Below, in pieces: positions 1 to 13,227 of a stretch of DNA of 64,000 nucleotides; position 1 is the first letter of the stretch, and each line of letters starts with the position of its first letter. The notes below the pieces were generated by a model. It ran no database searches. It saw nothing but the letters and a program-made list of their open reading frames with translations, and was not told the origin of the DNA. This DNA is from Actinomycetota bacterium. GTDB taxonomy: Bacteria > Actinomycetota > Actinomycetes > Nanopelagicales > Nanopelagicaceae. The position numbers and the translations under genes were made by a program. The DNA is taken from contig WLQG01000001.1 of NCBI GenBank assembly GCA_009698445.1, forward strand, positions 30,586 through 94,585, written 5' to 3'.

Positions 1-657
1 AACGGCATCAACATCTTGGCCATCTACGATTTCCTTACGCATTGCATAAGAATCAGCTCTGTCAGCTAAATCTGATATCGGTGTACTCAAATTAATGCGT
101 GTGTATTCACCATAAAGATTATTTTCAATTACAAATATGACAGGCAGTTTAAATATGCTAGCCATATTCAAAGTTTCATGGAATGCCCCAATATTTGTTG
201 AGCCATCTCCAAAGATTGTCAGTGCGACTGAGTCATTCTTTTTTAACTTTGCTGCAAGTGCTACACCGGCTGCAACTGGTAACCCAGCACCAACTATTGC
301 AAAGGTTGGCATCAACCCAACACTCGCGTCCATCAAGTGCATAGATCCGCCAATGCCACCTGAACAACCAATGACGCGCCCACAAATTTCACCAAGTACG
401 CCTTCGGGAGTGACTCCAAGGGCAAGGGCTGCTGCATGCCCGCGATAAGTGCACGTCACCACATCCGTAGGTCTTAAAACGCTGGCAATTCCAACTGACA
501 CTGCTTCCTGTCCATTTGCTAAGTGCGTACTTCCGCGCACGTGCCCATCGTTATAAAGAGTCTGAATGCTTTCTTCTACTGCGCGAATTTCTAACATTCG
601 CTCTAAGCGGCCAACCTCTGTGTTTAGCTGACTTCTACGCGTTAATGATGTGACCAT
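1..657 (-). CDS. 2-oxoacid dehydrogenase E1 alpha subunit (3' part beyond window)
   Basis: Thiamine-diphosphate-dependent E1 alpha of the pyruvate/acetoin/branched-chain 2-oxoacid dehydrogenase type; it decarboxylates a 2-oxoacid and acylates a lipoyl domain. The ORF track shows only a + strand shadow here, but the minus strand is open from the ATG at 657 to the window edge (219 residues seen). The ThDP motif begins as GDGSTN near residue 150 and ends at the ENN about 30 residues later. The GGSMHLMD segment and LPVIFV stretch are typical of AcoA/PdhA. The start overlaps the E1 beta stop by one base (TAATG), so the two are translationally coupled. The C-terminus and any E2/E3 genes lie outside the window. 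The substrate cannot be told from sequence. Confidence 0.9.
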   Translation of the reverse strand, partial: MVTSLTRRSQLNTEVGRLERMLEIRAVEESIQTLYNDGHVRGSTHLANGQEAVSVGIASVLRPTDVVTCTYRGHAAALALGVTPEGVLGEICGRVIGCSGGIGGSMHLMDASVGLMPTFAIVGAGLPVAAGVALAAKLKKNDSVALTIFGDGSTNIGAFHETLNMASIFKLPVIFVIENNLYGEYTRINLSTPISDLADRADSYAMRKEIVDGQDVDAV

Positions 658-1664
658 TATTTTGCTCCTTCCCACCAAGCAGCGGGGCTTTTACCAGTTT
701 TTAAAAGCTCATTAATTTGTGAAACAACGTAGTCAGAGCTCGGTAGATATCTCTTTTCAAGTTCTTGCGCATAAGGGATCGGTGCATCTGGTGAAGTGAT
801 TCTGTGTGGAGGAGTTTTCAATTGTCCCCACAATTTTGATACAACTTCAGAACAAATTTCTGCACCCCAGCCACCTGAATATGAGCTTTCTTCAATGACA
901 ACTAGTCTGCCGGTTTTTGCTACTGATTTCATCACTGCTGATTTGTCCCAAGGGACCAATGTTTGTAAATCAATAATTTCTGCAGACCATTCAGATTGAG
1001 ATTCCAGCGCAACCTTGGCTGTTAAAACTGTGCTACCGATTGCAACGATTGTTACATCTGATCCTTCAGTAACTGTACGTGCTTGGCCGATTGGAATAAT
1101 TCCAGCCTCACCAGTAATGACATCACCTCGCTCGCCGTACAGACCTTTGTGCTCAAGAATTACAACTGGGTCGTTACTACGAATCGCACTTCTGAGAAGG
1201 CCATACATAGATTGTGGAGTTGAAGGAATTACGAGACTAATTCCAGCATTTCCTCTAAACCATTGATCCAAGATTTGAGAATGCTGACATCCAAATCCCA
1301 TTCCAGCACCTGCAGCTGCTCTAATTGTTAAGGGCACTTGATATGCACCTCTAGATAAATATCTAAAAAATGCGCCTTGAGTTGTTAGTTGATCTAAAGC
1401 AACTCCAATGAACTCAATAAACATCATTTCAACGACAGGACGCATGCCCATCGCTGCGGCTCCAACCCCAGCACCAAGAAATGCCATTTCCGAAATCGGT
1501 GTATCGATTACCCGGGTATCCCCAAATTTTTCAATCAATCCTTCAGTGGCTTTAAACGGCCCACCAGATCCAATATCTTCTCCCATAAGGAATACGGTTG
1601 GGTCGCTTTCCATTTCATCGGAAAGGGCTTGAATAACTGCTTGGCGTGTCCGCATGACGGTCAT
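657..1664 (-). CDS. 2-oxoacid dehydrogenase E1 beta subunit
   Basis: Beta subunit of the E1 heterotetramer, 335 aa, normal for the AcoB/PdhB/BkdB family. Visible features are the ThDP-contacting GEDIG near residue 29, the ISEMAFLGAGVGAAAMG segment, and the C-terminal transketolase-type domain with VIEESSYSGGWGAEI. It partners the E1 alpha encoded just downstream (one-base overlap). Its ATG overlaps the stop of the preceding isomerase-like gene (ATGA), so it belongs to the operon started at the operator-controlled promoter near 2500. Acetoin, pyruvate or a branched-chain 2-oxoacid are all possible substrates. A matching lipoyl domain is encoded across the regulator at 9863. Confidence 0.92.
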   Translation of the reverse strand: MTVMRTRQAVIQALSDEMESDPTVFLMGEDIGSGGPFKATEGLIEKFGDTRVIDTPISEMAFLGAGVGAAAMGMRPVVEMMFIEFIGVALDQLTTQGAFFRYLSRGAYQVPLTIRAAAGAGMGFGCQHSQILDQWFRGNAGISLVIPSTPQSMYGLLRSAIRSNDPVVILEHKGLYGERGDVITGEAGIIPIGQARTVTEGSDVTIVAIGSTVLTAKVALESQSEWSAEIIDLQTLVPWDKSAVMKSVAKTGRLVVIEESSYSGGWGAEICSEVVSKLWGQLKTPPHRITSPDAPIPYAQELEKRYLPSSDYVVSQINELLKTGKSPAAWWEGAK

Positions 1665-1957
1665 TTGATTTCACCATATCTCTTCGGGTCGTTTGGATGT
1701 TCTGCTAAAGGCCAAATCTCAGTCTCGAGCCATGGGAAGAATGGCAAACTAGAAATCGCTGCATGCAGTTGCGTTGCATCAGCAGCAACCCAAATACCAA
1801 CATTAGATTTCTGGCCAGGTCGTCGCCAAATTTTCTTAATTACGCCTTCATTAGCCAACACGGTTGCGCGGGCACTTTCAGCTTTTGTAAGAGAGGCTAG
1901 TAAATCTTTGTCCCCATCGGCAGGGTACGTATTCTTAATTAAAACCATAAATTCCAT
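1661..1957 (-). CDS. Muconolactone isomerase-like small protein
   Basis: A 98-aa protein when started at MEFMVLIK; the ORF track start at 1984 would run into the upstream gene, whereas the ATG at 1957 is preceded by AAGGGCGAG. It matches the muconolactone delta-isomerase family (dimeric alpha-beta barrel fold): an N-terminal beta strand, a central IWRRPG, LHAAISSLPFFPWL, and the closing PLAEHPND. Family members isomerise muconolactone to the enol-lactone in the beta-ketoadipate pathway. No other gene of that pathway is convincing here, so the true substrate is unknown. It lies between the VOC gene and E1 beta in the same operon. Fold assignment is good; function is inference. Confidence 0.7.
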   Translation of the reverse strand: MEFMVLIKNTYPADGDKDLLASLTKAESARATVLANEGVIKKIWRRPGQKSNVGIWVAADATQLHAAISSLPFFPWLETEIWPLAEHPNDPKRYGEIK

Positions 1958-1961
1958 AATT

Positions 1962-2435
1962 TCACTCGCCCTTATATTCGCCAAATGAGGTTGAACTTTG
2001 AATCAACTCCACCCGAACACCATCAGGATCAATCATGTAAATTGCCCGTCCGCCCTTGTTTGGTCCAATCGTTGGAGTTACAGGAGTAGAGACACTTTTC
2101 ACGCCTTTCTTTGTTAACTCCTTGAACCACTCATCGACATCATCGACAAAAAAAGCAATGTGAGCGATACCTGGGTTGGCATTTCCATGATCTATATCCT
2201 TCAAATCCACATTCCCATATTCAAGTAGTTCTAAAAAAACATCTACGCCTGGCATTTTTAAAATCGTAGCGTTGAGGTCAACATCCGGATAGCCGGTCAA
2301 TACACCTATGTACTCTGCTTGTGGATTCCAGGAAAACACTTCTTCAAATCCGAGAAGCTCTTTATAAAATTTAGTTGATTCTCGCAACGACTTTACAGAG
2401 ATACCTGTGTGATGCGCTTTGGTTATCTGGGCCAA
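1962..2435 (-). CDS. VOC-superfamily (glyoxalase fold) metalloprotein
   Basis: Single vicinal-oxygen-chelate protein, about 157 aa. It opens with AHHTGISVKSL, the usual first-strand His, has GIAHIAFFV in the second half-fold, and ends with DPDGVRVELIQ, the usual last metal-ligand Glu. Family members include glyoxalase I, methylmalonyl-CoA epimerase, fosfomycin resistance enzymes and ring-cleavage dioxygenases. The ORF track start (TTG at 2504) is the -35 hexamer of the promoter, so it cannot be the real start. I prefer the TTG at 2435, which follows GAAGGGGA at good spacing and sits about 35 bases after the expected transcript start. It is the first gene of the operon with the isomerase-like and E1 genes. 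The reaction is unknown. Confidence 0.75.
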   Translation of the reverse strand: MAQITKAHHTGISVKSLRESTKFYKELLGFEEVFSWNPQAEYIGVLTGYPDVDLNATILKMPGVDVFLELLEYGNVDLKDIDHGNANPGIAHIAFFVDDVDEWFKELTKKGVKSVSTPVTPTIGPNKGGRAIYMIDPDGVRVELIQSSTSFGEYKGE

Positions 2436-2475
2436 CTTTAATTCCCCTTCTTCAGCAGCTTTTCGAGCGTTCCCA

Positions 2476-2504
2476 AGGCTATGTGAGGTCGCTAGGTTAG
2501 TCAA
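2476..2504 (-). promoter_or_regulatory. Promoter of the VOC-MIase-E1 operon, -35 inside the operator
   Basis: On the minus strand TTGACT (2504-2499) is followed by exactly 17 bases and TAGCCT (2481-2476). The -35 hexamer is one half-site of the 20-bp operator, so repressor binding would block RNA polymerase. The predicted transcript starts about 35 bases before the preferred TTG start of the VOC gene. Confidence 0.75.
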
Positions 2505-2516
2505 CCGATTGACTAA
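2497..2516. promoter_or_regulatory. Operator O1 for the LacI-type regulator
   Basis: A 20-bp inverted repeat TTAGTCAACCGATTGACTAA with a central CG, the usual architecture of LacI-family operators. Half-sites are TTAGTCAA/TTGACTAA, and only the positions flanking the central CG break symmetry. It lies just after the regulator's stop codon and overlaps the -35 of the next operon. An identical copy is at 5448-5467. Confidence 0.85.
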
Positions 2517-2522
2517 AATTAT

Positions 2523-3590
2523 TTAGCGCTTCGGTTTTCCCGTGGAATCTCGGGCCACTAACACCGGCGGAGTATCCACAATCAGATGGCCAGGTGATCC
2601 TCCACCAATGATTCTGAGCAGTAAATCTACAGACTGGCTACCCATCTCAACTGTAGGCAAATGAACTGTGGTTAAGGAGGGCGATAAATAATTTGCAATA
2701 TCGCTATCGTGCAATGCTGCAACCCTCACATTATTAGGAATATCTACGCCTAGTTCATGGGCTGCGCGAATAAATCCGATTCCCATCATAATTGTCGAGG
2801 CAAATACTGCGTCTGGTTTGACCTTCTTTGACAGTAGTTCTAGGCCGGCTTCTCTTCCAGCTTCCATTCCCCAAGAATTTTTTTCGATAACCGTATGTTT
2901 GAGTTTGTTTCTTGCTGCTGCACTTTCAAAACCCTTACGACGTCGTTGTGCCGTATCGATAATTTGTGGGCCGAATATACCCGCAATGGACTTAGTACCA
3001 AATTGAGCTAGATGATCAACTGCAAGTGATGCCCCCAGTTCATCGTTCACAGTTACACTTGCCGAGACACCTTTAACACGACGATTTACCATGACTACAG
3101 ATTTATAGTGATCAAGGATTTCTTTCTTTAGAAATGTATCGGAAAGAGTGCCTGAAGCAATTAAAAGACCATCTACTTGCCCTCGTTCAAGTAAATCTGT
3201 GAATGTTTTTTCAGAATCACCTTCAGCATGATCTCCAATTAAAATTCCATATCCGAGATCTTTACACCTCTGCTCTACGCCCGTAATTATTGCTGAATAC
3301 ATGGGATTGGCCATATCAGGAAGCAGAAGGCCAATCATCTGCGTGCGGGCGGTTTTCAACATTCTCGCCGCTGAATTAGCTCTATAACCTAACTCTTGAA
3401 CGGCATCTAAAACTCGCTGACGCGTTGCTGGCGATGCACTCGCTTTGGGGTCATTATTAACAATTCGTGAAACAAGGCTGGGATCTACTTTAGCAATGCG
3501 AGCAACATCTCTAATTGTCGCGCGTACTTGCTTTACATCGCTCGCTTTTTCGCTCTTTGGCGTCGCCACAATTCTTGCCCTCTGTTTCAC
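2523..3590 (-). CDS. LacI-family transcriptional repressor
   Basis: 355 aa in the LacI/GalR architecture. The N-terminal helix-turn-helix is TIRDVARIAKVDPSLVSRIVNN (around residues 25-47), followed by the hinge helix region ANSAARMLKTART, and a periplasmic-binding-type ligand domain starting IGLLLPDMANPMYS. It is flanked by the operator O1 just downstream and the identical O2 near 5.45 kb, so it very likely controls both operons. Ligand unknown; a sugar acid or organic acid intermediate of this pathway is the natural guess. Start could be the GTG at 3590, or the GTG at 3569, which has the better ribosome site (AGAGGG, about 8-9 bases upstream). Confidence 0.93.
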   Translation of the reverse strand: MKQRARIVATPKSEKASDVKQVRATIRDVARIAKVDPSLVSRIVNNDPKASASPATRQRVLDAVQELGYRANSAARMLKTARTQMIGLLLPDMANPMYSAIITGVEQRCKDLGYGILIGDHAEGDSEKTFTDLLERGQVDGLLIASGTLSDTFLKKEILDHYKSVVMVNRRVKGVSASVTVNDELGASLAVDHLAQFGTKSIAGIFGPQIIDTAQRRRKGFESAAARNKLKHTVIEKNSWGMEAGREAGLELLSKKVKPDAVFASTIMMGIGFIRAAHELGVDIPNNVRVAALHDSDIANYLSPSLTTVHLPTVEMGSQSVDLLLRIIGGGSPGHLIVDTPPVLVARDSTGKPKR

Positions 3591-3663: not shown

Positions 3664-4293
3664 TTGGGCACAGTACGCTCTATTGCTAAGAAGTCAATCA
3701 GCAATAAAACAATTTCAGACCTCGCCGCTGCCATTCATGCTGGGCGCTTAGTAATTTTACCGGCAACATCGGGCTACATAATCGCTTGTGATGCACAAAA
3801 TACATCGGCAATTACTGATTTAAACATACTTAGAGAAAACAATGAGGAATACATTCTTTCAATGATTTTTTCATCAATAACCCAAATGGATAGCGAAGTG
3901 ACTATTCCCAATTTTGATGAGGAAACCAAAAATTATATTGAAACTGGACAATTAACATTAGTTCTTCCTCGCGATGAGTCCATGCGGGTAAATGCATCTG
4001 GTTTTAGAGAGTTAGTTGCCGTCAACATTCCGGTGAATCAAAACATTAAGAAATTACTAGAAAAAACTGGTCCGTGCGTGGTAGCTGCCGCGGCATTACC
4101 TGGGCAAGGATTACCACTAGAGGTCAAAGATATAAGTTCAAAAATCAAAGAAGGGGTTGAATACATCTTGGATGCCGACAAGATTTCAGGGTTGGTCTCC
4201 ACAGTTATAAATTTTGAGAAAAGAAAACCAATAATTTCAAGAAATGGCGCAGTGCCAGAAGAGACTATAAAAAAGCTTTTCCCGGAAATTTAA
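3664..4293 (+). CDS. Divergent YrdC/Sua5-like protein lacking key residues
   Basis: 209 aa with the skeleton of the YrdC/TsaC fold: GRLVILPAT in place of the usual PTDTVYGL strand, QLTLVLP for the usual LTLIL strand, GLVSTVINF for the G-STVVD segment, and ISRNGAVP for the terminal R-GAI. The KxR that binds threonylcarbamoyl-AMP intermediates reads as RENNEEY, and the SxN motif is replaced by AAALPG. It is therefore unlikely to be the cell's t6A enzyme and may be a repurposed paralogue. The start is a TTG preceded closely by GAGGA. It is divergent from the LacI gene and its 3' end overlaps the enolase-family gene by 4 bases. Confidence 0.6.
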   Translation: MGTVRSIAKKSISNKTISDLAAAIHAGRLVILPATSGYIIACDAQNTSAITDLNILRENNEEYILSMIFSSITQMDSEVTIPNFDEETKNYIETGQLTLVLPRDESMRVNASGFRELVAVNIPVNQNIKKLLEKTGPCVVAAAALPGQGLPLEVKDISSKIKEGVEYILDADKISGLVSTVINFEKRKPIISRNGAVPEETIKKLFPEI

Positions 4294-5420
4294 TTAAAAA
4301 TTCCTTCAGGATCTTCAAAATTTTGTGTATGGATCCAATCCTTATTAACTAGGTTTCCAAAACCACTCTCTTCAGCAAGTGGGCTCATATAGCCGCCATC
4401 AATAATTTCAGGTTGGCGCAAACTGTCCGCATAGGGGTCGACGCCAGTCCAAGGTACGCCCCATTCAATTGGCACAGATGCATGGCCCCAAGCGCTGAAT
4501 ACTTGACTGTGAACATGGGCAAACATGTGTGGCGCAAAATCTACTTTTGATTCAAGACACTGTTTTACTATTTTCTTTCCACCAGTTATCCCGCCCATGC
4601 AGGTCAAATCAATACGTACGACATCAACAGCAGATTTTGAAATTAAAGATTCTGGGTAATAAATTCCACCTTGTTCATCTCCCATAGCTATAGGGATGCG
4701 AGTTCGTTGCCTCAGCTCGCGTACTACTTGTGCATTACCGGGTGGAAATACATCTTCAAACCAACCCAAATTTACATCCCCTAATAAGTTTAATAAATCC
4801 ATCGCAGAATCAACATCATCAAAAATCCATGCTGCATCGCAACCAATCCAAGCATCGGGAGCCGCTTTGCGCGCTGCCAGTAAGCGTTCAGCAGTTGCCA
4901 TATTATTTACACCCACTGGAGCTTTGAATCTTCGCCAGCCCTTTTTATAAAGATCGCTTACTTGTTCAAATACTTCATCGCCCCCCATTTTCGCTGGCGG
5001 ATATCCAATGATTGCCGTGGCAGGCATCGGTGCAAGATGGCCACCTAGAAGAGATGAAATTGATTTGTTTGACTGCTTTGCATAAGCATCCCAAGTGGCT
5101 AGATCAAGGATTGATAACGCCCTAAGACCTAACCCAGCCGAGTGTGAGGCCAAACTTCTCCGCAAAGCTGTCACGTATGTTTTCTCAACATCTTGTGCAT
5201 CTGTTCCTATGTAAATATTTTTTAAAGTCTTTCGAATCTGCTCAGCGACTGCTCCATCGCGCGTGAGAGTAAATGCCCATCCTTCAACACCTGAATTTAA
5301 GGTAACTTTGACAACCACGTACTCTCTAGTTTTCATAATCCAATCGCCAAAAACAACCGGTGCAGGTAGTTCCCCTGCAACTGTGGCCACATTGATACTA
5401 GATATGGTTGACGCGCTCAT
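4290..5420 (-). CDS. Mandelate racemase/muconate lactonizing enzyme family dehydratase-like
   Basis: Enolase-superfamily enzyme, 376 aa. Likely active-site residues in order: Lys166 in RRFKAPVG, metal ligands Asp195 (GCDAAW), Glu222 (WFEDVF) and Glu249 (MGDEQGG), then Asp271 (RIDLT) and His298 (APHMFAHVH). A Lys plus a His-Asp pair is the mandelate racemase-subgroup pattern, which includes many sugar-acid dehydratases. Family chemistry is abstraction of a proton alpha to a carboxylate. The ATG lies six bases after a -10 (TACTTT), so the mRNA is probably leaderless. It is transcribed divergently from the CoA-ester operon from the shared palindromic promoter/operator, so it likely supplies that pathway. 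Substrate unknown. Confidence 0.85.
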   Translation of the reverse strand: MSASTISSINVATVAGELPAPVVFGDWIMKTREYVVVKVTLNSGVEGWAFTLTRDGAVAEQIRKTLKNIYIGTDAQDVEKTYVTALRRSLASHSAGLGLRALSILDLATWDAYAKQSNKSISSLLGGHLAPMPATAIIGYPPAKMGGDEVFEQVSDLYKKGWRRFKAPVGVNNMATAERLLAARKAAPDAWIGCDAAWIFDDVDSAMDLLNLLGDVNLGWFEDVFPPGNAQVVRELRQRTRIPIAMGDEQGGIYYPESLISKSAVDVVRIDLTCMGGITGGKKIVKQCLESKVDFAPHMFAHVHSQVFSAWGHASVPIEWGVPWTGVDPYADSLRQPEIIDGGYMSPLAEESGFGNLVNKDWIHTQNFEDPEGIFN

Positions 5421-5426
5421 GAATGA

Positions 5427-5455
5427 AAAGTAAACCCAGCCCCCCTTTTAGTCAA
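5427..5455 (-). promoter_or_regulatory. Leftward promoter of the enolase-family gene
   Basis: Minus strand TTGACT (5455-5450), 17-base spacer, TACTTT (5432-5427), then six bases to the ATG at 5420, giving a probable leaderless transcript. The -35 is one half-site of operator O2. Confidence 0.75.
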
Positions 5456-5484
5456 CCGATTGACTAAAAGGGGGGCTGGGTTTA
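5431..5484. repeat. 54-bp near-perfect palindrome spanning divergent promoters
   Basis: Inverted repeat with 27-base arms and a single mismatched pair next to the centre (5456/5459). The centre is operator O2. The arms carry both -35 hexamers and identical mirrored spacers (A4, G6, CTGGG, TTTA), ending at the first bases of the two -10 elements. A LacI operator alone explains only the central 20 bp or so. Confidence 0.95.
5448..5467. promoter_or_regulatory. Operator O2 for the LacI-type regulator
   Basis: Identical base for base, and in the same orientation, to O1 at 2497-2516. It overlaps the -35 hexamers of both divergent promoters, so one bound repressor could silence both. Confidence 0.85.
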
Positions 5485-5527: not shown

Positions 5528-6013
5528 ATGAAACGTGAATTTGATGCCCGAGCTGATCGGTATGGGCGTTTTTATGATGAATTTGAAGTTGGTGACATTT
5601 ACCGACACTGGCCAGGGAAAACAATAACCGAGTCTGAAGATCATCTTTATTGCATGTTAACTATGGCCGGTAGCCCGCTGCATATTGACTCTCACTATGC
5701 CAAAGTTGAAATGCCTCAAGGAAAAAATATTGTTGTGGGCACTTATATCTATGCATTGTTAACCGGAATGTCTGTGGCTGATATTTCAGGAAAAGCTATT
5801 GTAAGTTTAGGTGTGAAGGAACTAAATCATATATTGCCAGTTTTTCATGGAGATACTATTTATGCCTCTACTGAGATATTAGACAAAAGGTTTTCCAAAT
5901 CAAAGACAGACCAGGGAATTGTAAGTGTTAAAACATCAGGGTTTAATCAAAACAAGGAATTAGTTTGTACATTTGAGCGCGCATTTTTAGTTCCTTTACA
6001 TGGGCCAAAGTAA
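5528..6013 (+). CDS. MaoC-family enoyl-CoA hydratase (mesaconyl-CoA hydratase-like)
   Basis: 161-aa single hot-dog protein of the MaoC family. It begins with GRFYDEFEVGD and the (K/R)TITES segment seen in mesaconyl/itaconyl-CoA hydratase relatives, and carries SPLHIDSHYA with the catalytic His near residue 52. The position that is Asp in PhaJ-type (R)-hydratases is Ala here. The family hydrates 2-enoyl-CoA or dehydrates the 3-hydroxyacyl-CoA. Context with a CitE-like lyase, Mct-like isomerase and second MaoC suggests beta-methylmalyl-CoA/mesaconyl-C1-CoA or mesaconyl-C4-CoA/citramalyl-CoA as substrate pair. It is the first gene of the operon, has AAGGA upstream, and its stop overlaps the next ATG (TAATG). 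Confidence 0.8.
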   Translation: MKREFDARADRYGRFYDEFEVGDIYRHWPGKTITESEDHLYCMLTMAGSPLHIDSHYAKVEMPQGKNIVVGTYIYALLTGMSVADISGKAIVSLGVKELNHILPVFHGDTIYASTEILDKRFSKSKTDQGIVSVKTSGFNQNKELVCTFERAFLVPLHGPK

Positions 6014-7158
6014 TGACTGCTAAAGAACATTCAGGCCCACTCGTCGGGCTAAAAGTCATTGACTTAGCAACAGTTGTTGCTGGTCCAGGGGTAGCAAAAT
6101 ATTTTGCGGATTATGGTGCAGATGTAATTAAGATAGAAAGACCCTCTGGAGACTCCACTAGAGCAATGGGATGGACCGAGCCAGGTGAGACTGATTCTCT
6201 CTGGTGGAAATTAGTAAATCGTGGCAAACGTTCACTAGTTTTAGATTTAAAGAATGACGCAGATCTTTCAATATTAAAGGAGCTTATTGATTCTGCCGAT
6301 TTATTGATAGAAAACATGCGCCCCGGAAAAATTGAACAACTTGGGTTGGATCCTGAAGAATTGATTTCTAGAAATCCAAAACTAGTTGTTTTACGCGTTT
6401 CTGGTTTTGGACAAACTGGTCCATACGCGCAAAAACCTGGCTTTGCCACAATTGCAGAAGCCCTTTCAGGTCTCTCTTCGCTTTTAGGAGAACCTGATGG
6501 GGGTCCACTATTGCCGCCAATCGCACTTACTGATGAAGTCACAGCGCTAGTTGGATCATTCTCAGCCATGATTGCGATTTTTCACGCAAAGCTAACTGGG
6601 CAAGGCCAGATAGTGGATATAGATCTTGTTGACTCAGTCTTGCAAATCATGGGACCACTGCCAGCAGCCTGGGATTCACTTGGTTATCTTCAGCCACGAC
6701 TAGGTTCAAGCATTCCTTATTCAATTCCCCGTGGAACTTATAAGTGTTCTGATGGAGTTTGGGTAGCACTTTCAGCTTCAGCGGAATCTGTGGCTAAGCG
6801 GCTCATAGAAACCGTAGGAGGGGCAGGTGATCCTCGATTCACATCCTTTCAATCTCGATTTGAGAACCGAGAAGCTCTTGAAGAGCTGACAAGTAACTGG
6901 ATTGGCTCGAGAACTTCTAAAGAAGTCATTGAAACTATTGAAGCCGCAGACGCAGCTATTGCACCAGTTTATAATATGCAACAGGTTATTGAAGACCCTC
7001 ATTTTATCGCCAGGGAAAGCTTCACAAAAGTGGACGGGATTCTCATGCAAAACTTGGTAGCTCGGCTTTCGAAAACTCCTGGCAAGATTATTTCAGCTGG
7101 GCCAAAATTAGGTGAGCATAATGAAGAAATTAAAAGAGAGCTTCATGACAAGAATTAA
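6013..7158 (+). CDS. CoA-transferase family III (CaiB/BaiF)
   Basis: 381-aa class III CoA-transferase. The N-terminal Rossmann part reads LKVIDLATVVAGP and GADVIKIERP; the catalytic Asp is most likely Asp174 in PPIALTDEVTALVG. These enzymes move CoA between acyl-CoA and a free acid through an aspartyl-CoA thioester. Next to two hydratases, a CitE-like lyase and an Mct homologue, a succinyl-CoA:mesaconate, citramalate or itaconate CoA-transferase is the best guess, so it would activate the free acid entering the pathway. It is coupled to the MaoC gene by a one-base overlap and overlaps the lyase start by 14 bases. Exact substrate is inference. Confidence 0.88.
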   Translation: MTAKEHSGPLVGLKVIDLATVVAGPGVAKYFADYGADVIKIERPSGDSTRAMGWTEPGETDSLWWKLVNRGKRSLVLDLKNDADLSILKELIDSADLLIENMRPGKIEQLGLDPEELISRNPKLVVLRVSGFGQTGPYAQKPGFATIAEALSGLSSLLGEPDGGPLLPPIALTDEVTALVGSFSAMIAIFHAKLTGQGQIVDIDLVDSVLQIMGPLPAAWDSLGYLQPRLGSSIPYSIPRGTYKCSDGVWVALSASAESVAKRLIETVGGAGDPRFTSFQSRFENREALEELTSNWIGSRTSKEVIETIEAADAAIAPVYNMQQVIEDPHFIARESFTKVDGILMQNLVARLSKTPGKIISAGPKLGEHNEEIKRELHDKN

Positions 7159-8104
7159 TCTCTTGTCAAAAAGAAGTGTCCTAGCAGTTCCCGGCTCTAG
7201 CGAAAAAATGATTCAAAAAGCACGGCTATTGAATGCTGATGAAATATTCCTAGATTTAGAAGATTCAGTGTCGCTACCCGAAAAGGAATCTGCTAGGTCA
7301 TTAGTCATTTCTGAATTGAATAAGGGCGGTTTTAATTCAGCCTCAGTGGCTGTTCGGGTTAACGAACAAAACCAATCAATAGGAATCCAAGACATCGAAG
7401 AACTTATTACTAAAGCGCCTACTAAATTTTCTTCTATCATCATTCCTAAAGTTGAGACGTCACAACAAGTTACTGAGATTTGTCAGAGATTAACTGATTT
7501 AGAACTCTCACAAGGGTTGAATGATCAAACAAAAATTCAACTTCAAATTGAATCAGCACGTGGACTACTAAATGTTAAAGAAATAGCCAGTGCATGCGGG
7601 CGCACAATCTCCTTGATTTTTGGCCCTGGTGACTTCGCGGCAAGTATGGGGATGCAGGTTTTGAATATCGGTGAGAACCCAGTCAATTATCCAGGTGAAG
7701 ATGCATATCATCATGTCCTATTTTCAATACTTACTGCTGCACGCGCAAATGGTTTATTAGCAATCGATGGTCCCTTTAGCGATCTTGGAAATGAGCCTGG
7801 ACTAAAACATAGGTCTCAATTATCTGCTTCCCTTGGCTACGATGGAAAGTGGGTTATTCACCCATCGCAAATAGAAGTAGTGAATTCTATTTTCACACCT
7901 AGTGAGGAAGTTTTCGAGAAATCTTCTAAAATTATTGCTCACTTTAACCGTTCGAATGCAACTGAAAAATCTGCGGGTGCCTTTTTATTCGAAGGGAAAA
8001 TGATTGATGAGGCAACTAGGAAAATGGCTGAAATGATTTATTCAAAAGGTATCGCTGCAGGTTTAAAGCCTTCTATGAATGGGGATAATAATGGCAAAGC
8101 ATAA
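7145..8104 (+). CDS. CitE-like CoA-ester lyase (citramalyl/malyl-CoA lyase type)
   Basis: HpcH/HpaI-fold lyase, 319 aa from the ATG at 7145, which follows AAGAGAG; the track start (GTG 7112) lies deeper in the upstream gene. Hallmarks: FLDLEDSV near residue 36, Glu136 and Arg139 in QIESARG, Asp163 in FGPGDFAASMG as the second metal ligand, and the C-terminal lid FEGKMIDEAT with Asp288. These match the CitE/citramalyl-CoA lyase branch more than HpaI aldolases. The expected reaction is cleavage of a 3-hydroxyacyl-CoA such as (S)-citramalyl-CoA to acetyl-CoA plus pyruvate, or beta-methylmalyl-CoA to propionyl-CoA plus glyoxylate. It overlaps both neighbours by 14 bases. Confidence 0.88.
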   Translation: MTRINLLSKRSVLAVPGSSEKMIQKARLLNADEIFLDLEDSVSLPEKESARSLVISELNKGGFNSASVAVRVNEQNQSIGIQDIEELITKAPTKFSSIIIPKVETSQQVTEICQRLTDLELSQGLNDQTKIQLQIESARGLLNVKEIASACGRTISLIFGPGDFAASMGMQVLNIGENPVNYPGEDAYHHVLFSILTAARANGLLAIDGPFSDLGNEPGLKHRSQLSASLGYDGKWVIHPSQIEVVNSIFTPSEEVFEKSSKIIAHFNRSNATEKSAGAFLFEGKMIDEATRKMAEMIYSKGIAAGLKPSMNGDNNGKA

Positions 8105-8624
8105 AGCTGAACTGGGTAGATTTTATGAGGATTTTGTTGTTGGTGATTCGTATGAACATCCTTTTGGTCGTACCATCAGTGAGACTGATTGCACATGGTT
8201 TACACAATTAACATGTAATACAAACCAAAACCATTTTAATGCGCATCTGGCTCTTTCTAATCCGGTCTCAAATGGAAAAATAATTGTCAACTCTGGTCTT
8301 ACTGTTGCCATTATCCTGGGCATTTCAGTTATTGATATGAGTCAAAATGCAGTGGCTAATTTGGGCTGGACTGACATTAAACTTACACACCCGGTCTATG
8401 TTGGGGACACTTTGTATGCCGAAAGTATCTGCACAGAAGTTCGCGAATCTTCTTCAAAACCAAATATGGGAATTATTTCTATGTTCACTAGAGGGTTAAA
8501 CCAGGATGGCATCGAAATAGTGACTTGGTTTAGAAGTGTCATGATTCCAAAGCGAAGTTCTGGAATTGGCCAGAATTATTTTCCTACGCCAAAATCTGGA
8601 GCAATTGAAGGGCGAATGTCTTAA
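8091..8624 (+). CDS. MaoC-family hydratase, itaconyl/mesaconyl-CoA hydratase-like
   Basis: 177 aa from the ATG at 8091, which has GGGGA at 8081-8085; the track ATG at 8079 precedes that ribosome site. It opens GRFYEDFVVGD and contains LTCNTNQNHFN, NAVANLGW and YVGDTLYAES, a pattern I associate with the MaoC protein encoded beside CitE in mycobacteria (Rv2499c), part of an itaconate/leucine dissimilation locus. The PhaJ-type Asp is Asn43 here, while His48 is kept. It is clearly a paralogue, not a copy, of the MaoC gene at 5528, as expected if the pathway needs two different hydration/dehydration steps. Direction and substrate are inferred. Confidence 0.82.
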   Translation: MAKHKAELGRFYEDFVVGDSYEHPFGRTISETDCTWFTQLTCNTNQNHFNAHLALSNPVSNGKIIVNSGLTVAIILGISVIDMSQNAVANLGWTDIKLTHPVYVGDTLYAESICTEVRESSSKPNMGIISMFTRGLNQDGIEIVTWFRSVMIPKRSSGIGQNYFPTPKSGAIEGRMS

Positions 8625-8626
8625 GC

Positions 8627-9859
8627 ATGACTCTTGCATCACCAATACTTTCTGGTTTGAGAATTATTGAAGGATCGGCCTTTGTAGCTGCCCCTCTCGG
8701 TGGGCTTACTTTGGCTCAACTTGGAGCAGAAGTAATTCGCTTTGACCCCCTAAGTGGAGGGCTGGATTTCAAACGTTGGCCAATTACCAAATCTCATGCA
8801 TCACTTTTTTGGGCTGGATTAAACCGTGGGAAGAAATCTATTCAAGTGGACCTCAAGAGCCAGAGAGGTAGAAAGTTAATATCTGACCTAATAACTTCGC
8901 CTGGCGAAGGATCTGGAATATTTCTCACGAATCTTGCCTCTAAAGATCAATTGAGTTATGAAGAACTTCGTAAGAAAAGATCTGACGTTATTGTAATTTC
9001 TTTAACTGGTAATTTTGATGGTTCAAGCGAAGTTGATTACACGGTGCATCCAGCATTTGGATACCCAATGATTACAGGGCCAAAAAATTCGGATTCGCCA
9101 ACAAATAGTGTTCTGCCAACCTGGGATTTGATCCTTGGAAACCTTGTCGCAATTGCAATTTTAGCGGCAGAGCGAAAACGACGTCAGACAGGTGAAGGTG
9201 AATTTGTTTCGATTGCACTCTCAGATGTCGCATTGTCAGTTGTTGGTGCTCTAGGTCGACTATCACAAGCATATATTGGTGAAGAGATGATTGCCCAAGA
9301 TGGAAATTACCTTTATGGGTCTTTTGGTAAGAATTTTCTTACAGCAGATAAACAACAAATTATGCTAGTTGGTTTAACTTCTAGACAGTGGAATTCACTT
9401 ACGACCGCACTTAATATAGAAAGTTCATTAAAGGAACTTGAAAAGGATTTAGCTGCCGATTTCCAAGATGAAGGGCAGCGATATGCGCATAGAGAATCGA
9501 TAGCGCTCATCATAGAAAGAGTTGTTGCATCAAAAGAATTACAAGAATTAATTCCTATTTTTGTAGCCAATAAAGTGAGCTGGTCTAAATATCAAAGCTT
9601 TGAGGATTTGCTCAATAATGATGCAAGGGCTTCTGATCAAAATCCTATTTTCTCTCTCCAGAACCAGCCAGGGGTAGGAACAACGCCAAATATTGCATCG
9701 CCAATAAGATTCCAATTTAGCCGCAATCTAGAGCCAGAGATTGCGCCTTACTTTGGACAGCACACCGAGGAAGTCCTAAAGGAGATTCTAAATCTGAGCC
9801 CTGAAGAGCTTGATGACTTGGTTAAGGAAAAAATCATAAAGAGAGATAACAGGGGGTAA
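8627..9859 (+). CDS. mct: 2-methylfumaryl-CoA isomerase-like (mesaconyl-CoA C1-C4 CoA-transferase)
   Basis: 410-aa class III CoA-transferase, clearly different from the one at 6013. The N-terminus IIEGSAFVAAPLGG, the segment SEVDYTVHP, the catalytic-Asp region LPTWD (Asp167), and NYLYGSFGKNF closely resemble what I recall of the Chloroflexus Mct enzyme. Mct moves CoA intramolecularly from the C1 to the C4 carboxyl of mesaconate. In the 3-hydroxypropionate bicycle this step lies between two hydratase steps and precedes citramalyl-CoA cleavage, exactly the enzyme types encoded around it. Two bases separate it from the MaoC stop. The assignment is from memory of the family and should be confirmed by alignment. 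Confidence 0.75.
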   Translation: MTLASPILSGLRIIEGSAFVAAPLGGLTLAQLGAEVIRFDPLSGGLDFKRWPITKSHASLFWAGLNRGKKSIQVDLKSQRGRKLISDLITSPGEGSGIFLTNLASKDQLSYEELRKKRSDVIVISLTGNFDGSSEVDYTVHPAFGYPMITGPKNSDSPTNSVLPTWDLILGNLVAIAILAAERKRRQTGEGEFVSIALSDVALSVVGALGRLSQAYIGEEMIAQDGNYLYGSFGKNFLTADKQQIMLVGLTSRQWNSLTTALNIESSLKELEKDLAADFQDEGQRYAHRESIALIIERVVASKELQELIPIFVANKVSWSKYQSFEDLLNNDARASDQNPIFSLQNQPGVGTTPNIASPIRFQFSRNLEPEIAPYFGQHTEEVLKEILNLSPEELDDLVKEKIIKRDNRG

Positions 9860-10103: not shown

Positions 10104-10832
10104 GTGAAAATAACGGTGACTGGTGCGGCCAGTGGAATAGGTAAAGCCACAGTTCTTAAGTTGCTTGATTCAGGCCATGATCTGATTGTTGTCGACCTAC
10201 CGGGCGCAAATTTTGATTTTTTGTCAGATTCAAAAGCTCAAATTATCTATGGCGATGTTTCTAATCAAGATGACAGAAACGCAATCATTGCCGCTTCTAA
10301 AGGCGTAGATGGATTAGTCAATGCTGCTGGGAAAATTGAAACTAAAAATCTCTCTGATTATTCAATTGCTGACATAAGGGAACTCTTTGCCATAAATTTC
10401 GAGTCAGTCTGGGACTTAACTGCCAATATCGGAGCCACAATGCCTAGTGGAAGTGCAATTGTGAATTTAAGTTCTACCGGCGCAAAGGTTGTAACTAATT
10501 CTAATGTTGGTCCTTATGCGGCAACCAAGGCTGCAGTTTTAAGTCTGACTAGAACTTTTGCTTTCGAGTTTGCTAAAAAAGGTGTAAGAGTCAATGCAAT
10601 TTGCCCAGGACTTATTGAAACACCTATGCAAACTAAAGTAAGTGAAGGCCTCGCTAAAGGTCAAAACCTACAAATTGGTGATGTCATCCAAAAGAGAGTT
10701 GAAATGATTCCACTAAATCGCTTTGGAACTGCTTTGGAATGCGCCAACTTAATTGTTTTTCTTCTTTCACCTGATTCCAGCTATATGACTGGGCAAGCAA
10801 TAAACATAAGTGGCGGTTTGGTTACTTTTTAA
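10104..10832 (+). CDS. Short-chain dehydrogenase/reductase
   Basis: 242-aa classical SDR. The cofactor motif is TGAASGIG at residues 6-13, the NAAG motif is at 73-76, and the catalytic set is Ser123/124, Tyr138 and Lys142 in GPYAATK. CPGLIETPM and the C-terminal YMTGQAINISGG are typical. Asp31 after the second beta strand favours NAD(H). GTG start, four bases after the lipoyl gene stop, so it is the last gene of the operon. It probably oxidises or reduces a hydroxyl group in the same pathway. The 3' end overlaps the convergent kinase gene by 11 bases. Confidence 0.88.
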   Translation: MKITVTGAASGIGKATVLKLLDSGHDLIVVDLPGANFDFLSDSKAQIIYGDVSNQDDRNAIIAASKGVDGLVNAAGKIETKNLSDYSIADIRELFAINFESVWDLTANIGATMPSGSAIVNLSSTGAKVVTNSNVGPYAATKAAVLSLTRTFAFEFAKKGVRVNAICPGLIETPMQTKVSEGLAKGQNLQIGDVIQKRVEMIPLNRFGTALECANLIVFLLSPDSSYMTGQAINISGGLVTF

Positions 10833-11679
10833 CTGCATTCTTGCTGAGCTCTTGAGCAACAAATTTCCAATTAACAGGAATTGACTGCTGATTTGCGGTC
10901 GTTAATCCAGCCCAAATTGTGCTCACTGTAAGCATGTCGATGGCGGATCTATTTTCATATTGAGAAAGAACCACACCGGCTAAAAATGAGTCGCCGGCAC
11001 CAGTTGAATCAACTACATCGATTTCCATAGCACGAATTGCGACCTCTTTGTCATCATGAAAAAGCGTAGAGCCATTCGCACCATCTGTAACAATGATTTT
11101 TGAAAACCTTGATTTAAATTTTTCTAATGTTTCAGGTCGATCTACTTCACCATTTGAAAGTACCAATATGTCTCCTGATATATCTTCGGCACTATTAAGA
11201 CTATTAGAACCTATAATCGTTGTGCAGATCCCACTTATTTCCTGGAGCATAGGAAAAAAAGCATCTACCCAAAACGGCCATACAACAATGTCGCCTGGTT
11301 TGACTGGAAGTGAGAGGGAAGAAATTTTCGCAAGTAAATTCTTCTCCATTCCAATCATTGTTCTTTCACCAGATTTTTCTACAAGAATAGTTACATGCGG
11401 AGAAGGCGAATCAAAAGTCTGAATATATTTTGATGATAGACCACTTTCTGAAATTGCTTCTCTTAGATTTGATCCCACAGAATCGTTCCCAACATATCCA
11501 ACTAGATTGACTGGGAGGTCAGCGCTCTTAATTCCAGAAGCCACGTTGAAACCTTGTCCTCCAGCTCGTTCATGATGAGAGTTCGCGTGCAGGAATCTTC
11601 CTGAAGTCGGGATTTGCGGTACATATAGGACTGTGTCCCAGGCTATTGGACCTATCACCCAAATGGAGGCTGAATTCAT
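10822..11679 (-). CDS. PfkB-family carbohydrate kinase
   Basis: 285-aa ribokinase/PfkB protein. The N-terminal substrate-side motif is ERAGGQGFNVA (around residues 37-47) and the C-terminal catalytic motif is DSTGAGDSFLAG, with the Asp of GAGD as base. It phosphorylates a sugar or sugar acid with ATP. It is convergent with the SDR gene and divergent from the LarA homologue, so it is not part of the operator-controlled operon but sits in the same catabolic block. A role as a 2-keto-3-deoxy-acid kinase would fit beside a dehydratase-like enzyme, but nothing in the sequence fixes the substrate. Confidence 0.88.
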   Translation of the reverse strand: MNSASIWVIGPIAWDTVLYVPQIPTSGRFLHANSHHERAGGQGFNVASGIKSADLPVNLVGYVGNDSVGSNLREAISESGLSSKYIQTFDSPSPHVTILVEKSGERTMIGMEKNLLAKISSLSLPVKPGDIVVWPFWVDAFFPMLQEISGICTTIIGSNSLNSAEDISGDILVLSNGEVDRPETLEKFKSRFSKIIVTDGANGSTLFHDDKEVAIRAMEIDVVDSTGAGDSFLAGVVLSQYENRSAIDMLTVSTIWAGLTTANQQSIPVNWKFVAQELSKNAVKK

Positions 11680-11738: not shown

Positions 11739-13037
11739 ATGTCCCAAAGTCAAGTACCTAATAATTTACTGGGAAGTCCACTCGGAAAAAATGCGTTCAT
11801 CGGAGATTTTGATAGCGAGTTATCAAGTACCGAAATTACTGAATTCATTGTCAGGGCATTAAAGTCAATCGATTTCACTGGCAAGAATGTAACTCTTGTT
11901 GTACCCGACGCCACGCGCTCTTGTCCCTTACCAACAATTTTACCTATCTTTTACGAGGCAATCTCTCCTGGTGCAAATTCTCTGACTGCACTCATTGCAT
12001 TAGGCACACATGCTCCTATGACCCCAGAAGCAATCGATAAATTCTTAGCGGGGGAAAATCAAACAACTAATCAAAAATATCCAACGATGAAAATTTATAA
12101 TCATGAGTGGTGGGAACCTTCAACTTTTACACACTTGGGTTCAATAACTGCAGAAGAAATTACAAAAATCTCTTTGGGCCAGATTACCTCTGAAGTGCCA
12201 GTTTCCATAAATAGACATGTCACCGAATCCGATTTAGTCATAATCATCGGTCCTGTTTTTCCACACGAAGTTGTTGGCTTTAGCGGCGGAGCAAAATACC
12301 TATTTCCAGGTGTATCAGGTGAAGAAATGATCGATTACTCTCATTGGCTTGGGGCAATAATTTCAAGTGCAGAAATTATTGGTACTTTAGGAATTACTCC
12401 AGTTCGCGAAATGATTAATCTCGCTGCAAGCAAAATTGAAGTTCCGCTTCTTGCACTGTGTCTTGTTGTAGAAACTGGTACCAGTACTATTTCATCTCTT
12501 TCCTTTGGTGCCCCCCATACTGCCTGGGAGTACGCTTCTGCTGTTTCGGCAAGAAAGCATATTAAGTTCTTGGACAAACCAGTTAAGCGAGTAGTCTCAA
12601 TAATGCCATCGCGGTATCAAGATATTTGGACTGCTGCAAAAGGTATGTATAAAGTTGAACCAATCATTGAAGACGGTGGTGAAGTTATTCTTTTTGCCCC
12701 TCACATAACTGAGTTTTCTATTACTCATAAAGAGCTTGAGGATATTGGGTACCACTGCCGAGAATATTTCTCATCACAAATGGACAAATTTGCAGATGTA
12801 TCAAAAACTCTTATGGCTCACTCATCACATTTGAGAGGAGCTGGAAGTTTTTCTGCCTCTCAAGGGGAGCAATGCAGAATCACAGTGACACTTTCAACAG
12901 GAATCTCAAAAGAGAGAACTGAAGCAATGAACCTGAAATATCTAGATCCTTCTTTATTTAACTTGTCGGACTATGAAAATAATTCAGAGGTTTTGGTCAA
13001 CCACAATGCGGGTGAAATTCTTTATAGATTAAACTAG
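11739..13037 (+). CDS. LarA-family nickel-pincer racemase/epimerase homologue
   Basis: 432-aa member of the lactate racemase LarA family. Visible residues match those of Lactiplantibacillus LarA: GTHAPMTP (His91), His176 in GPVFPHEVVGFSGG, Lys186 in GGAKYLFPG (the lysine that tethers the nickel pincer nucleotide), and His202 in YSHWLG. Family members racemise or epimerise 2-hydroxyacids, including lactate, malate and aldonic acids such as gluconate. In this setting, beside a dehydratase-like enzyme and a PfkB kinase, a sugar-acid or hydroxyacid epimerase is plausible. The larB, larC and larE maturation genes are not in the window. Confidence 0.85.
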   Translation: MSQSQVPNNLLGSPLGKNAFIGDFDSELSSTEITEFIVRALKSIDFTGKNVTLVVPDATRSCPLPTILPIFYEAISPGANSLTALIALGTHAPMTPEAIDKFLAGENQTTNQKYPTMKIYNHEWWEPSTFTHLGSITAEEITKISLGQITSEVPVSINRHVTESDLVIIIGPVFPHEVVGFSGGAKYLFPGVSGEEMIDYSHWLGAIISSAEIIGTLGITPVREMINLAASKIEVPLLALCLVVETGTSTISSLSFGAPHTAWEYASAVSARKHIKFLDKPVKRVVSIMPSRYQDIWTAAKGMYKVEPIIEDGGEVILFAPHITEFSITHKELEDIGYHCREYFSSQMDKFADVSKTLMAHSSHLRGAGSFSASQGEQCRITVTLSTGISKERTEAMNLKYLDPSLFNLSDYENNSEVLVNHNAGEILYRLN

Positions 13038-13142: not shown

Positions 13143-13227
13143 TGGTGGCGGGTGAAGGATTTGAACCTTCGAAGGCAGAGCCGGGGGATTTACAGTCCCC
13201 TCCCATTGGCCGCTCGGGCAACCCGCC
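13143..13227 (-). tRNA. tRNA-Tyr (GTA)
   Basis: On the minus strand, a seven-pair acceptor stem (GGCGGGT/ACCCGCC), encoded CCA end, anticodon GTA in ACTGTAAATC, long class II variable arm as usual for bacterial tRNA-Tyr, and a T-arm with GGTTCAAATCC. Its 3' end faces the catabolic block. It is the boundary between the AT-richer left region and the core genes to the right. Confidence 0.97.

Follow-up and report, generated by a model that had tools for sequence, protein, structure and literature searches.

The mct-like gene and its relationship to characterised transferases

The window analysed here is a stretch of 64,000 nucleotides from an actinobacterial genome of the family Nanopelagicaceae (contig WLQG01000001.1, positions 30,586 to 94,585), and it contains a gene whose product resembles mesaconyl-C1:C4-CoA transferase (Mct), an intramolecular class III coenzyme A (CoA) transferase. 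The open reading frame (ORF) starts with ATG, has zero internal stops and encodes an intact protein of 410 amino acids (aa) that contains the segments IIEGSAFVAAPLGG, SEVDYTVHP, LPTWD and NYLYGSFGKNF. The protein is about 46% identical to the Mcts of Chloroflexus and Roseiflexus over its full length, and because these are solved enzymes its fold is not in doubt. The best whole-length matches among solved structures are the Roseiflexus MCT (7xkg, 411 bits) and the Chloroflexus Mct (8apq, 405 bits), and the next match is a formyl-CoA transferase with 81 bits. Among the NCBIfam models TIGR04253 ("2-methylfumaryl-CoA isomerase") ranks first with 430 bits, followed by a second model with 101 bits.

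A phylogeny of 52 sequences, which came from relatives and plasmids and included the two solved Mct enzymes, separates 46 Mct-like proteins from the CaiB/Frc-type transferases with support of 100/100. The window protein belongs to one clade (95/95) together with five copies from relatives, the enzymes of Chloroflexus and Roseiflexus, and sequences from five other Actinomycetota. The original prediction, made from the sequence alone, that the protein is Mct-like rather than a generic CaiB protein is borne out by this grouping and by the full-length homology; in the tree the protein does not fall with formyl-CoA, oxalate or carnitine CoA-transferases, and a placement among Frc, CaiB or oxalate transferases is ruled out by the tree and the active-site residues together.

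Asp167, Arg50, Tyr138 and Leu46 of the window protein are equivalent to D165, R47, Y136 and L43 of the solved Mcts. In the numbering of the solved enzymes, the window protein retains D165, R47, Y136, D135, N100, S132, E133 and L43, among them D165, R47 and Y136, the complete set for which contact with the mesaconyl moiety has been reported. In the Chloroflexus enzyme the second carboxylate is held by R47 and Y136, and a leucine or isoleucine at position 43, which narrows the entrance, has been reported in all intramolecular enzymes (PMC9813914). In our alignment one of these two residues occupies position 43 in all 13 sequences of the Mct clade, in 12 of the 33 other Mct-like proteins and in none of the nine CaiB-type sequences. 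The segments listed above had been taken as specific to Mct, and this holds only in part: S132-E133 occurs mainly within the Mct clade, but VDY, WD and YG.FG occur across the wider Mct-like subfamily in tree and alignment and are ruled out as Mct-specific motifs. An alternative explanation is that the gene encodes an ordinary intermolecular class III CoA-transferase, a member of the same superfamily whose score would fall below the Mct cut-off of NCBIfam, as that of the window protein does. We consider this very improbable, as the position in the tree, the Leu43 "cork", Arg47 and the stretch around the glycine-rich-loop position, which resembles Mct, all follow the intramolecular enzymes.

The mct operon

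The mct-like gene is the fifth gene of an operon. It is preceded by maoC1, caiB1, a gene for a C-C lyase and maoC2, with gene ends that overlap or abut, and a gene for a lipoyl domain starts 3 bases downstream (Table 1). The lyase has its closest solved relatives in the Rhodobacter Mcl (4l9y, 170 bits) and a malyl-/beta-methylmalyl-CoA lyase (5ugr, 156 bits), both outscoring a citrate-lyase-like protein (3qll, 110 bits), which we take to be an itaconate-type RipC. For both maoC1 and maoC2 the closest solved relative is a beta-methylmalyl-CoA dehydratase (8hgn). A lyase and two hydratases, families that belong to one half of the 3-hydroxypropionate (3-HP) bicycle, adjoin mct; the two hydratases are neither double hot-dog Mch nor FAS1-type Meh enzymes, and none scores above its NCBIfam cut-off. 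Judged from its predicted proteins, the operon probably encodes the tool set of this half-bicycle, with an enzyme similar to itaconyl-CoA hydratase (Ich-like) standing where Chloroflexus uses Meh. The claim that no other bicycle gene lies in the window was therefore wrong, since the lyase-type gene and the two 8hgn-like hydratase genes are found directly upstream of mct.

Table 1. Features of the sugar-acid island within the window, ordered by position
Feature	Position	Strand	Evidence
2-oxoacid dehydrogenase E1 alpha, extends left beyond window	1..678	-	PF00676, 266 bits (L074:10260-11264)
2-oxoacid dehydrogenase E1 beta	657..1664	-	family profiles
Muconolactone-isomerase-fold protein (MIase), 107 aa	1661..1984	-	PF02426, 89 bits (L074:12247-12570)
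VOC-family protein	1962..2504 (start probably near 2432)	-	family profiles
Second, identical predicted operator TAGTCAACCGATTGACTA, upstream of VOC-MIase-E1 operon	2498..2515	.	sequence search
LacI-family regulator	2523..3590	-	sequence read directly; kept in relatives
Enolase 1 of the mandelate-racemase type (resembling acid-sugar dehydratases), oriented away from maoC1	4290..5420	-	PF02746/PF13378
Perfect palindrome, 25-bp arms, 4-nt centre, divergent promoter region	5431..5484	.	fold z -7.65
Predicted LacI-type operator TAGTCAACCGATTGACTA, between enolase 1 and maoC1-mct operon	5449..5466	.	sequence search
maoC1, single hot-dog hydratase, beta-methylmalyl/mesaconyl-CoA hydratase-like	5528..6013	+	PF19315 MC_hydratase, 55 bits; best PDB 8hgn
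caiB1, class III CoA-transferase, ordinary intermolecular type	6013..7158	+	PF02515, 354 bits; TIGR04253 merely 52 bits
C-C lyase of malyl-CoA/beta-methylmalyl-CoA-lyase type	7112..8104 (start probably near 7148)	+	PDB matches
maoC2, Ich-like hydratase, predicted mesaconyl-C4-CoA hydratase	8079..8624	+	best PDB 8hgn
mct-like gene, intramolecular class III CoA-transferase	8627..9859	+	homology, NCBIfam, tree, active-site residues
Free-standing lipoyl domain, 78 aa	9863..10099	+	PF00364, 64 bits
SDR oxidoreductase	10104..10832	+	family profiles
PfkB-family kinase	10822..11679	-	family profile
LarA-like nickel-pincer 2-hydroxyacid racemase/epimerase	11739..13037	+	family profiles
tRNA-Tyr, right edge of island	13143..13227	-	tRNA found

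A Rhodococcus plasmid cluster encodes a MaoC that shares 69% identity with the product of maoC2; this cluster also encodes CaiB, MmgE/PrpD, an acyl-CoA dehydrogenase and a lyase, and it has the layout of an itaconate/methylsuccinate cluster. The Ich-type hydratase of such clusters hydrates mesaconyl-C4-CoA (PMC12290011). The operon may serve to break down a free C5 dicarboxylic acid (mesaconate, itaconate, citramalate or methylsuccinate), with caiB1, which is part of the operon, activating the acid, Mct shifting the CoA to C4, and maoC2 and the lyase releasing acetyl-CoA and pyruvate. However, the operon contains neither MmgE nor an acyl-CoA dehydrogenase, the lyase is of the Mcl type and not of the RipC type, caiB1 is just 30% identical to the Rhodococcus CaiB, and the operon shares its control with sugar genes and a carbohydrate-type importer. 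We regard this explanation as unlikely.

The lipoyl domain is kept directly behind mct in six loci (L015-L017, L068, L069 and L070). No E2 catalytic domain was seen near it, and its predicted E1 alpha/beta partner lies about 9 kb away. In locus L068 (genome G037) caiB1 (7586-8651) and the LarA-like gene (1708-3006) are each broken into two frames, through either decay or an assembly error.

A predicted operator shared with sugar-acid genes

The 18-bp motif TAGTCAACCGATTGACTA, a predicted LacI-type operator, is found twice in the window. One copy lies within the 54-bp palindrome between enolase 1 and the mct operon, and the other precedes an operon that encodes the VOC protein, MIase, E1 beta, E1 alpha, an SDR and enolase 2; the LacI gene is situated between the two copies. 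The palindrome is far longer than an operator requires. In 100 shuffles of the window the motif did not occur with up to two mismatches, and a relaxed form of it matches only these two sites in the whole genome and no site in 59 sampled relatives. The motif is conserved in loci L015, L016, L017 and L071, and G103, a near-complete genome of the same genus, has it exactly at both equivalent places and carries a weaker site ahead of the importer genes. The rest of the island, which lies partly to the left of the window, encodes a carbohydrate-type ABC importer, two SMP-30 lactonases, SDRs and enolase 2. The shared operator and this gene content link the mct operon with the catabolism of sugar acids. 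The predicted operator-based connection to the sugar-acid genes would be the new part of the finding. A search of the enolase against plasmids returned relatives of only 25-28% identity, without a hint to its substrate.

Related freshwater genomes show the same arrangement. In G103 the genes of the mct operon are 63-92% identical to those of the window, with order and neighbours unchanged, and enolase 1 (73% identity) adjoins the operon there too. The enolases, lactonases, E1, MIase, VOC protein, LacI and the CoA operon do not vary between the two genomes, whereas the importer is of another type. The MIase and the VOC protein, for their part, belong to the constant core of the island. The distribution of Mct is patchy, with a strong match in four of 151 genomes from the family, including the one that contains the window. 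The tRNA-Tyr gene lies beside YajQ, and in G103 YajQ and rarD are found near an island end, which suggests that the island is a tRNA-linked variable region. Loci L015 and L017, titled Alpha- and Betaproteobacteria, contain the actinobacterial island described here with unchanged gene order and roughly 80-93% protein identity, and probably represent mislabelled or misbinned metagenome-assembled genomes.

Gene content of the genome

The window genome (G000) comprises 1.34 Mb in 67 contigs. Absences were judged by family searches in this assembly, which is 84.7% complete, and in near-complete relatives. Both PF02515 genes of the genome lie within the mct operon, and a single lyase of the malyl-CoA type is present. 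The original prediction had left this lyase to be sought in the full genome, and a gene of this type is located in the mct operon itself. The genes of the carbon-fixing half are missing: no AMP-binding ORF is longer than 686 aa and no SDR ORF longer than 294 aa, and hence we find neither a propionyl-CoA synthase (Pcs) nor a malonyl-CoA reductase (Mcr); the same is true of G103. In G175 and G206 the long ORFs close to mct, considered as Mcr, turned out to be an ABC transporter, an ORF without a family and a helicase. Autotrophy is rejected, as these family searches detected neither Pcs nor Mcr.

The module could also function in the heterotrophic assimilation of glyoxylate as in Chloroflexus, where glyoxylate and propionyl-CoA yield acetyl-CoA and pyruvate; if this were the case, then the sugar island would just supply the glyoxylate. 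The full enzyme set, as predicted, is encoded in one operon, and there is a published precedent (PMC6593406). Isocitrate lyase was not found in the window genome, G103 or G037, and malate synthase was not found in the window genome, G037 or G015, so that glyoxylate would need another route in these genomes. However, G103 retains the module despite having malate synthase, no source of propionyl-CoA was identified, methylmalonyl-CoA mutase was not found in the window genome, and a single operator regulon suggests one pathway dedicated to sugar acids. Classical glyoxylate assimilation therefore deserves consideration but is somewhat doubtful.

A predicted half-bicycle in a sugar-acid regulon

The reading we favor, and consider fairly probable, is that the Mct-type transferase and its operon partners constitute a half-bicycle within a LacI-controlled sugar-acid regulon. 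The gene families, the active-site residues, the gene order, the operator common to both operons and the lack of Mcr and Pcs are read from the sequence, and from these we infer the activities, the substrate and the direction of the reactions. Asp167 would attack the thioester of a dicarboxylyl-CoA with a C4 backbone (mesaconyl-CoA by homology), the free carboxylate would be held by Arg50 and Tyr138, with Leu46 helping to close the pocket, and the CoA would go back onto the other carboxylate. The product of maoC1 is predicted to act on the side of mesaconyl-C1-CoA, and the Ich-like product of maoC2 to convert mesaconyl-C4-CoA to citramalyl-CoA, while the lyase is predicted to form or cleave malyl-, beta-methylmalyl- and citramalyl-CoA. 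Jointly these enzymes would account for the second half of the bicycle, in which the Ich-like enzyme replaces Meh, and would lack the half that fixes CO2.

The connection to the sugar-acid genes may lie in the 2-oxoacid dehydrogenase. Oxidative decarboxylation converts 4-hydroxy-2-oxoglutarate to malyl-CoA, its 4-methyl form to citramalyl-CoA and its 3-methyl form to beta-methylmalyl-CoA, and these would be exactly the esters on which the lyase, the hydratases and Mct could act, interconverting and cleaving them. The enolase-type dehydratases would produce a 2-keto-3-deoxy acid, which E1 alpha/beta and the lipoyl protein might convert to a malyl-CoA-type thioester, if it derives from an aldarate, and the mct module might then release acetyl-CoA, pyruvate, glyoxylate or propionyl-CoA. 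We tentatively suggest, with considerable reservation, that this may represent a new route of freshwater actinobacteria, in which enolase-type dehydratases and E1/lipoyl proteins act on an aldarate-like acid to give a thioester of the malyl- or methylmalyl-CoA type, and a half-bicycle with Mct converts this thioester to central metabolites.

Several observations weigh against a half-bicycle in this setting. The window protein, with its 430 bits, does not reach the curated equivalog cut-off of TIGR04253, which is 725 bits; none of 397 genomes sampled across the Actinomycetota passes it, and the cut-off seems to be tuned to proteins that resemble the characterised enzymes very closely. R75, R104 and R314 are replaced by lysine and F101 by leucine. 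A topology in which the window group lies just outside the other Mcts is not rejected by the approximately unbiased test (p-AU 0.245), the branch of the group is long and its amino-acid make-up is odd; hence the data are compatible with the group lying inside the other Mcts or being their sister. The lyase is nearer to the Rhodobacter Mcl than to the trifunctional Chloroflexus Mcl; both known types of malyl-CoA lyase handle citramalyl-CoA at least partly (PMC3832036). Finally, no E2 acyltransferase was seen in the island stretches that were read, and no precedent for a sugar-derived substrate of the mesaconyl type was found in the open-access literature.

Some of these observations would also be expected if the enzyme had the fold and mechanism of Mct but acted on another dicarboxylyl-CoA derived from a sugar acid instead of mesaconyl-CoA. 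The score under the equivalog cut-off, the long branch, the exchange of arginines for lysine and of N139 for histidine, the latter throughout the window group, and the sugar-acid regulon are all consistent with this possibility. However, D165, R47 and Y136 are all kept, and the operon partners look like enzymes of beta-methylmalyl-CoA, which makes a different substrate rather unlikely.

Relation to known systems and significance

The window protein shares with the Mcts of Chloroflexus aurantiacus and Roseiflexus castenholzii (8apq, 7xkg) the full-length homology, the catalytic aspartate, the Arg47/Tyr136 clamp, Leu43, S132-E133 and the coupling to a lyase and hydratases. It differs in the moderate identity, the TIGR04253 score, the three lysines and a location in a sugar-acid regulon without CO2-fixing genes. 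The window gene is probably an Mct in a new setting, judging by these sequence comparisons, and this setting points to an undescribed heterotrophic use of Mct chemistry. The original prediction had called a heterotrophic use notable. A genome without Pcs and Mcr agrees with such a use; heterotrophic Mct use by itself, however, is not new, since partial bicycles with Mct and without Mcr or Pcs have been published for Kentron, Thiosymbion, Competibacter and Accumulibacter (PMC6593406). These also combine Mct with a lyase and hydratases, whereas the window encodes single-domain MaoC proteins in place of the double hot-dog Mch and the FAS1-type Meh, and belongs to a streamlined actinobacterium in which the module shares LacI control with sugar-acid genes.

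The itaconate/methylsuccinate cluster (ict-ich-ccl-mcd-mmgE; PMC12290011) is similar in its CaiB, Ich-like hydratase, C-C lyase and C5-dicarboxylyl-CoA chemistry, but the window has Mct, an Mcl-type lyase and a sugar regulon. The mct operon is not a cluster of this kind, which is recognised by ich and ccl and in the saprophyte type also by mcd and mmgE; neither mcd nor mmgE was found in the operon. Non-phosphorylative sugar-acid pathways, e.g., in SAR202 (PMC10444878), likewise have SDRs that act with dehydratases of the mandelate-racemase family; these pathways finish in pyruvate and lactate or lactaldehyde, whereas in the window a CoA/lyase module is coupled via the operator. No paper was found in the open-access literature that describes an Mct module from acI actinobacteria, one controlled with sugar-acid genes, or the combination of core genes in the island.

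Plasmids of soil bacteria commonly carry Mct-like genes. An acyl-CoA dehydrogenase gene is often found next to them, and several of these loci also contain a MaoC N-terminal-type hydratase and a lyase. One Paraburkholderia plasmid encodes the five functions of the mct operon (CaiB, MaoC, a lyase, MaoC and an Mct-like protein) in one run, near sugar transport genes and an enolase. In six plasmid loci (L040, L041, L047, L075, L078 and L083) the Mct-like gene adjoins an acyl-CoA dehydrogenase of about 530-570 aa, and some of them also contain a CoA ester lyase and a MaoC of the FAS1 type. These loci possibly represent a route for methylsuccinyl-C1-CoA, a compound reported to be a dead end in C. 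necator (PMC12290011).

Within the autotrophic 3-HP bicycle Mct is a key enzyme, and it can be taken as a marker of this pathway in surveys of carbon fixation. The finding of a relative from the same clade in a small heterotroph, under predicted control with sugar-acid genes, and of further Mct-like genes on many plasmids of soil bacteria warns against reading such genes as evidence of CO2 fixation. It also allows a direct test of whether sugar-acid catabolism in this lineage, which is abundant in lakes, may include a branch of mesaconyl- and malyl-CoA chemistry.
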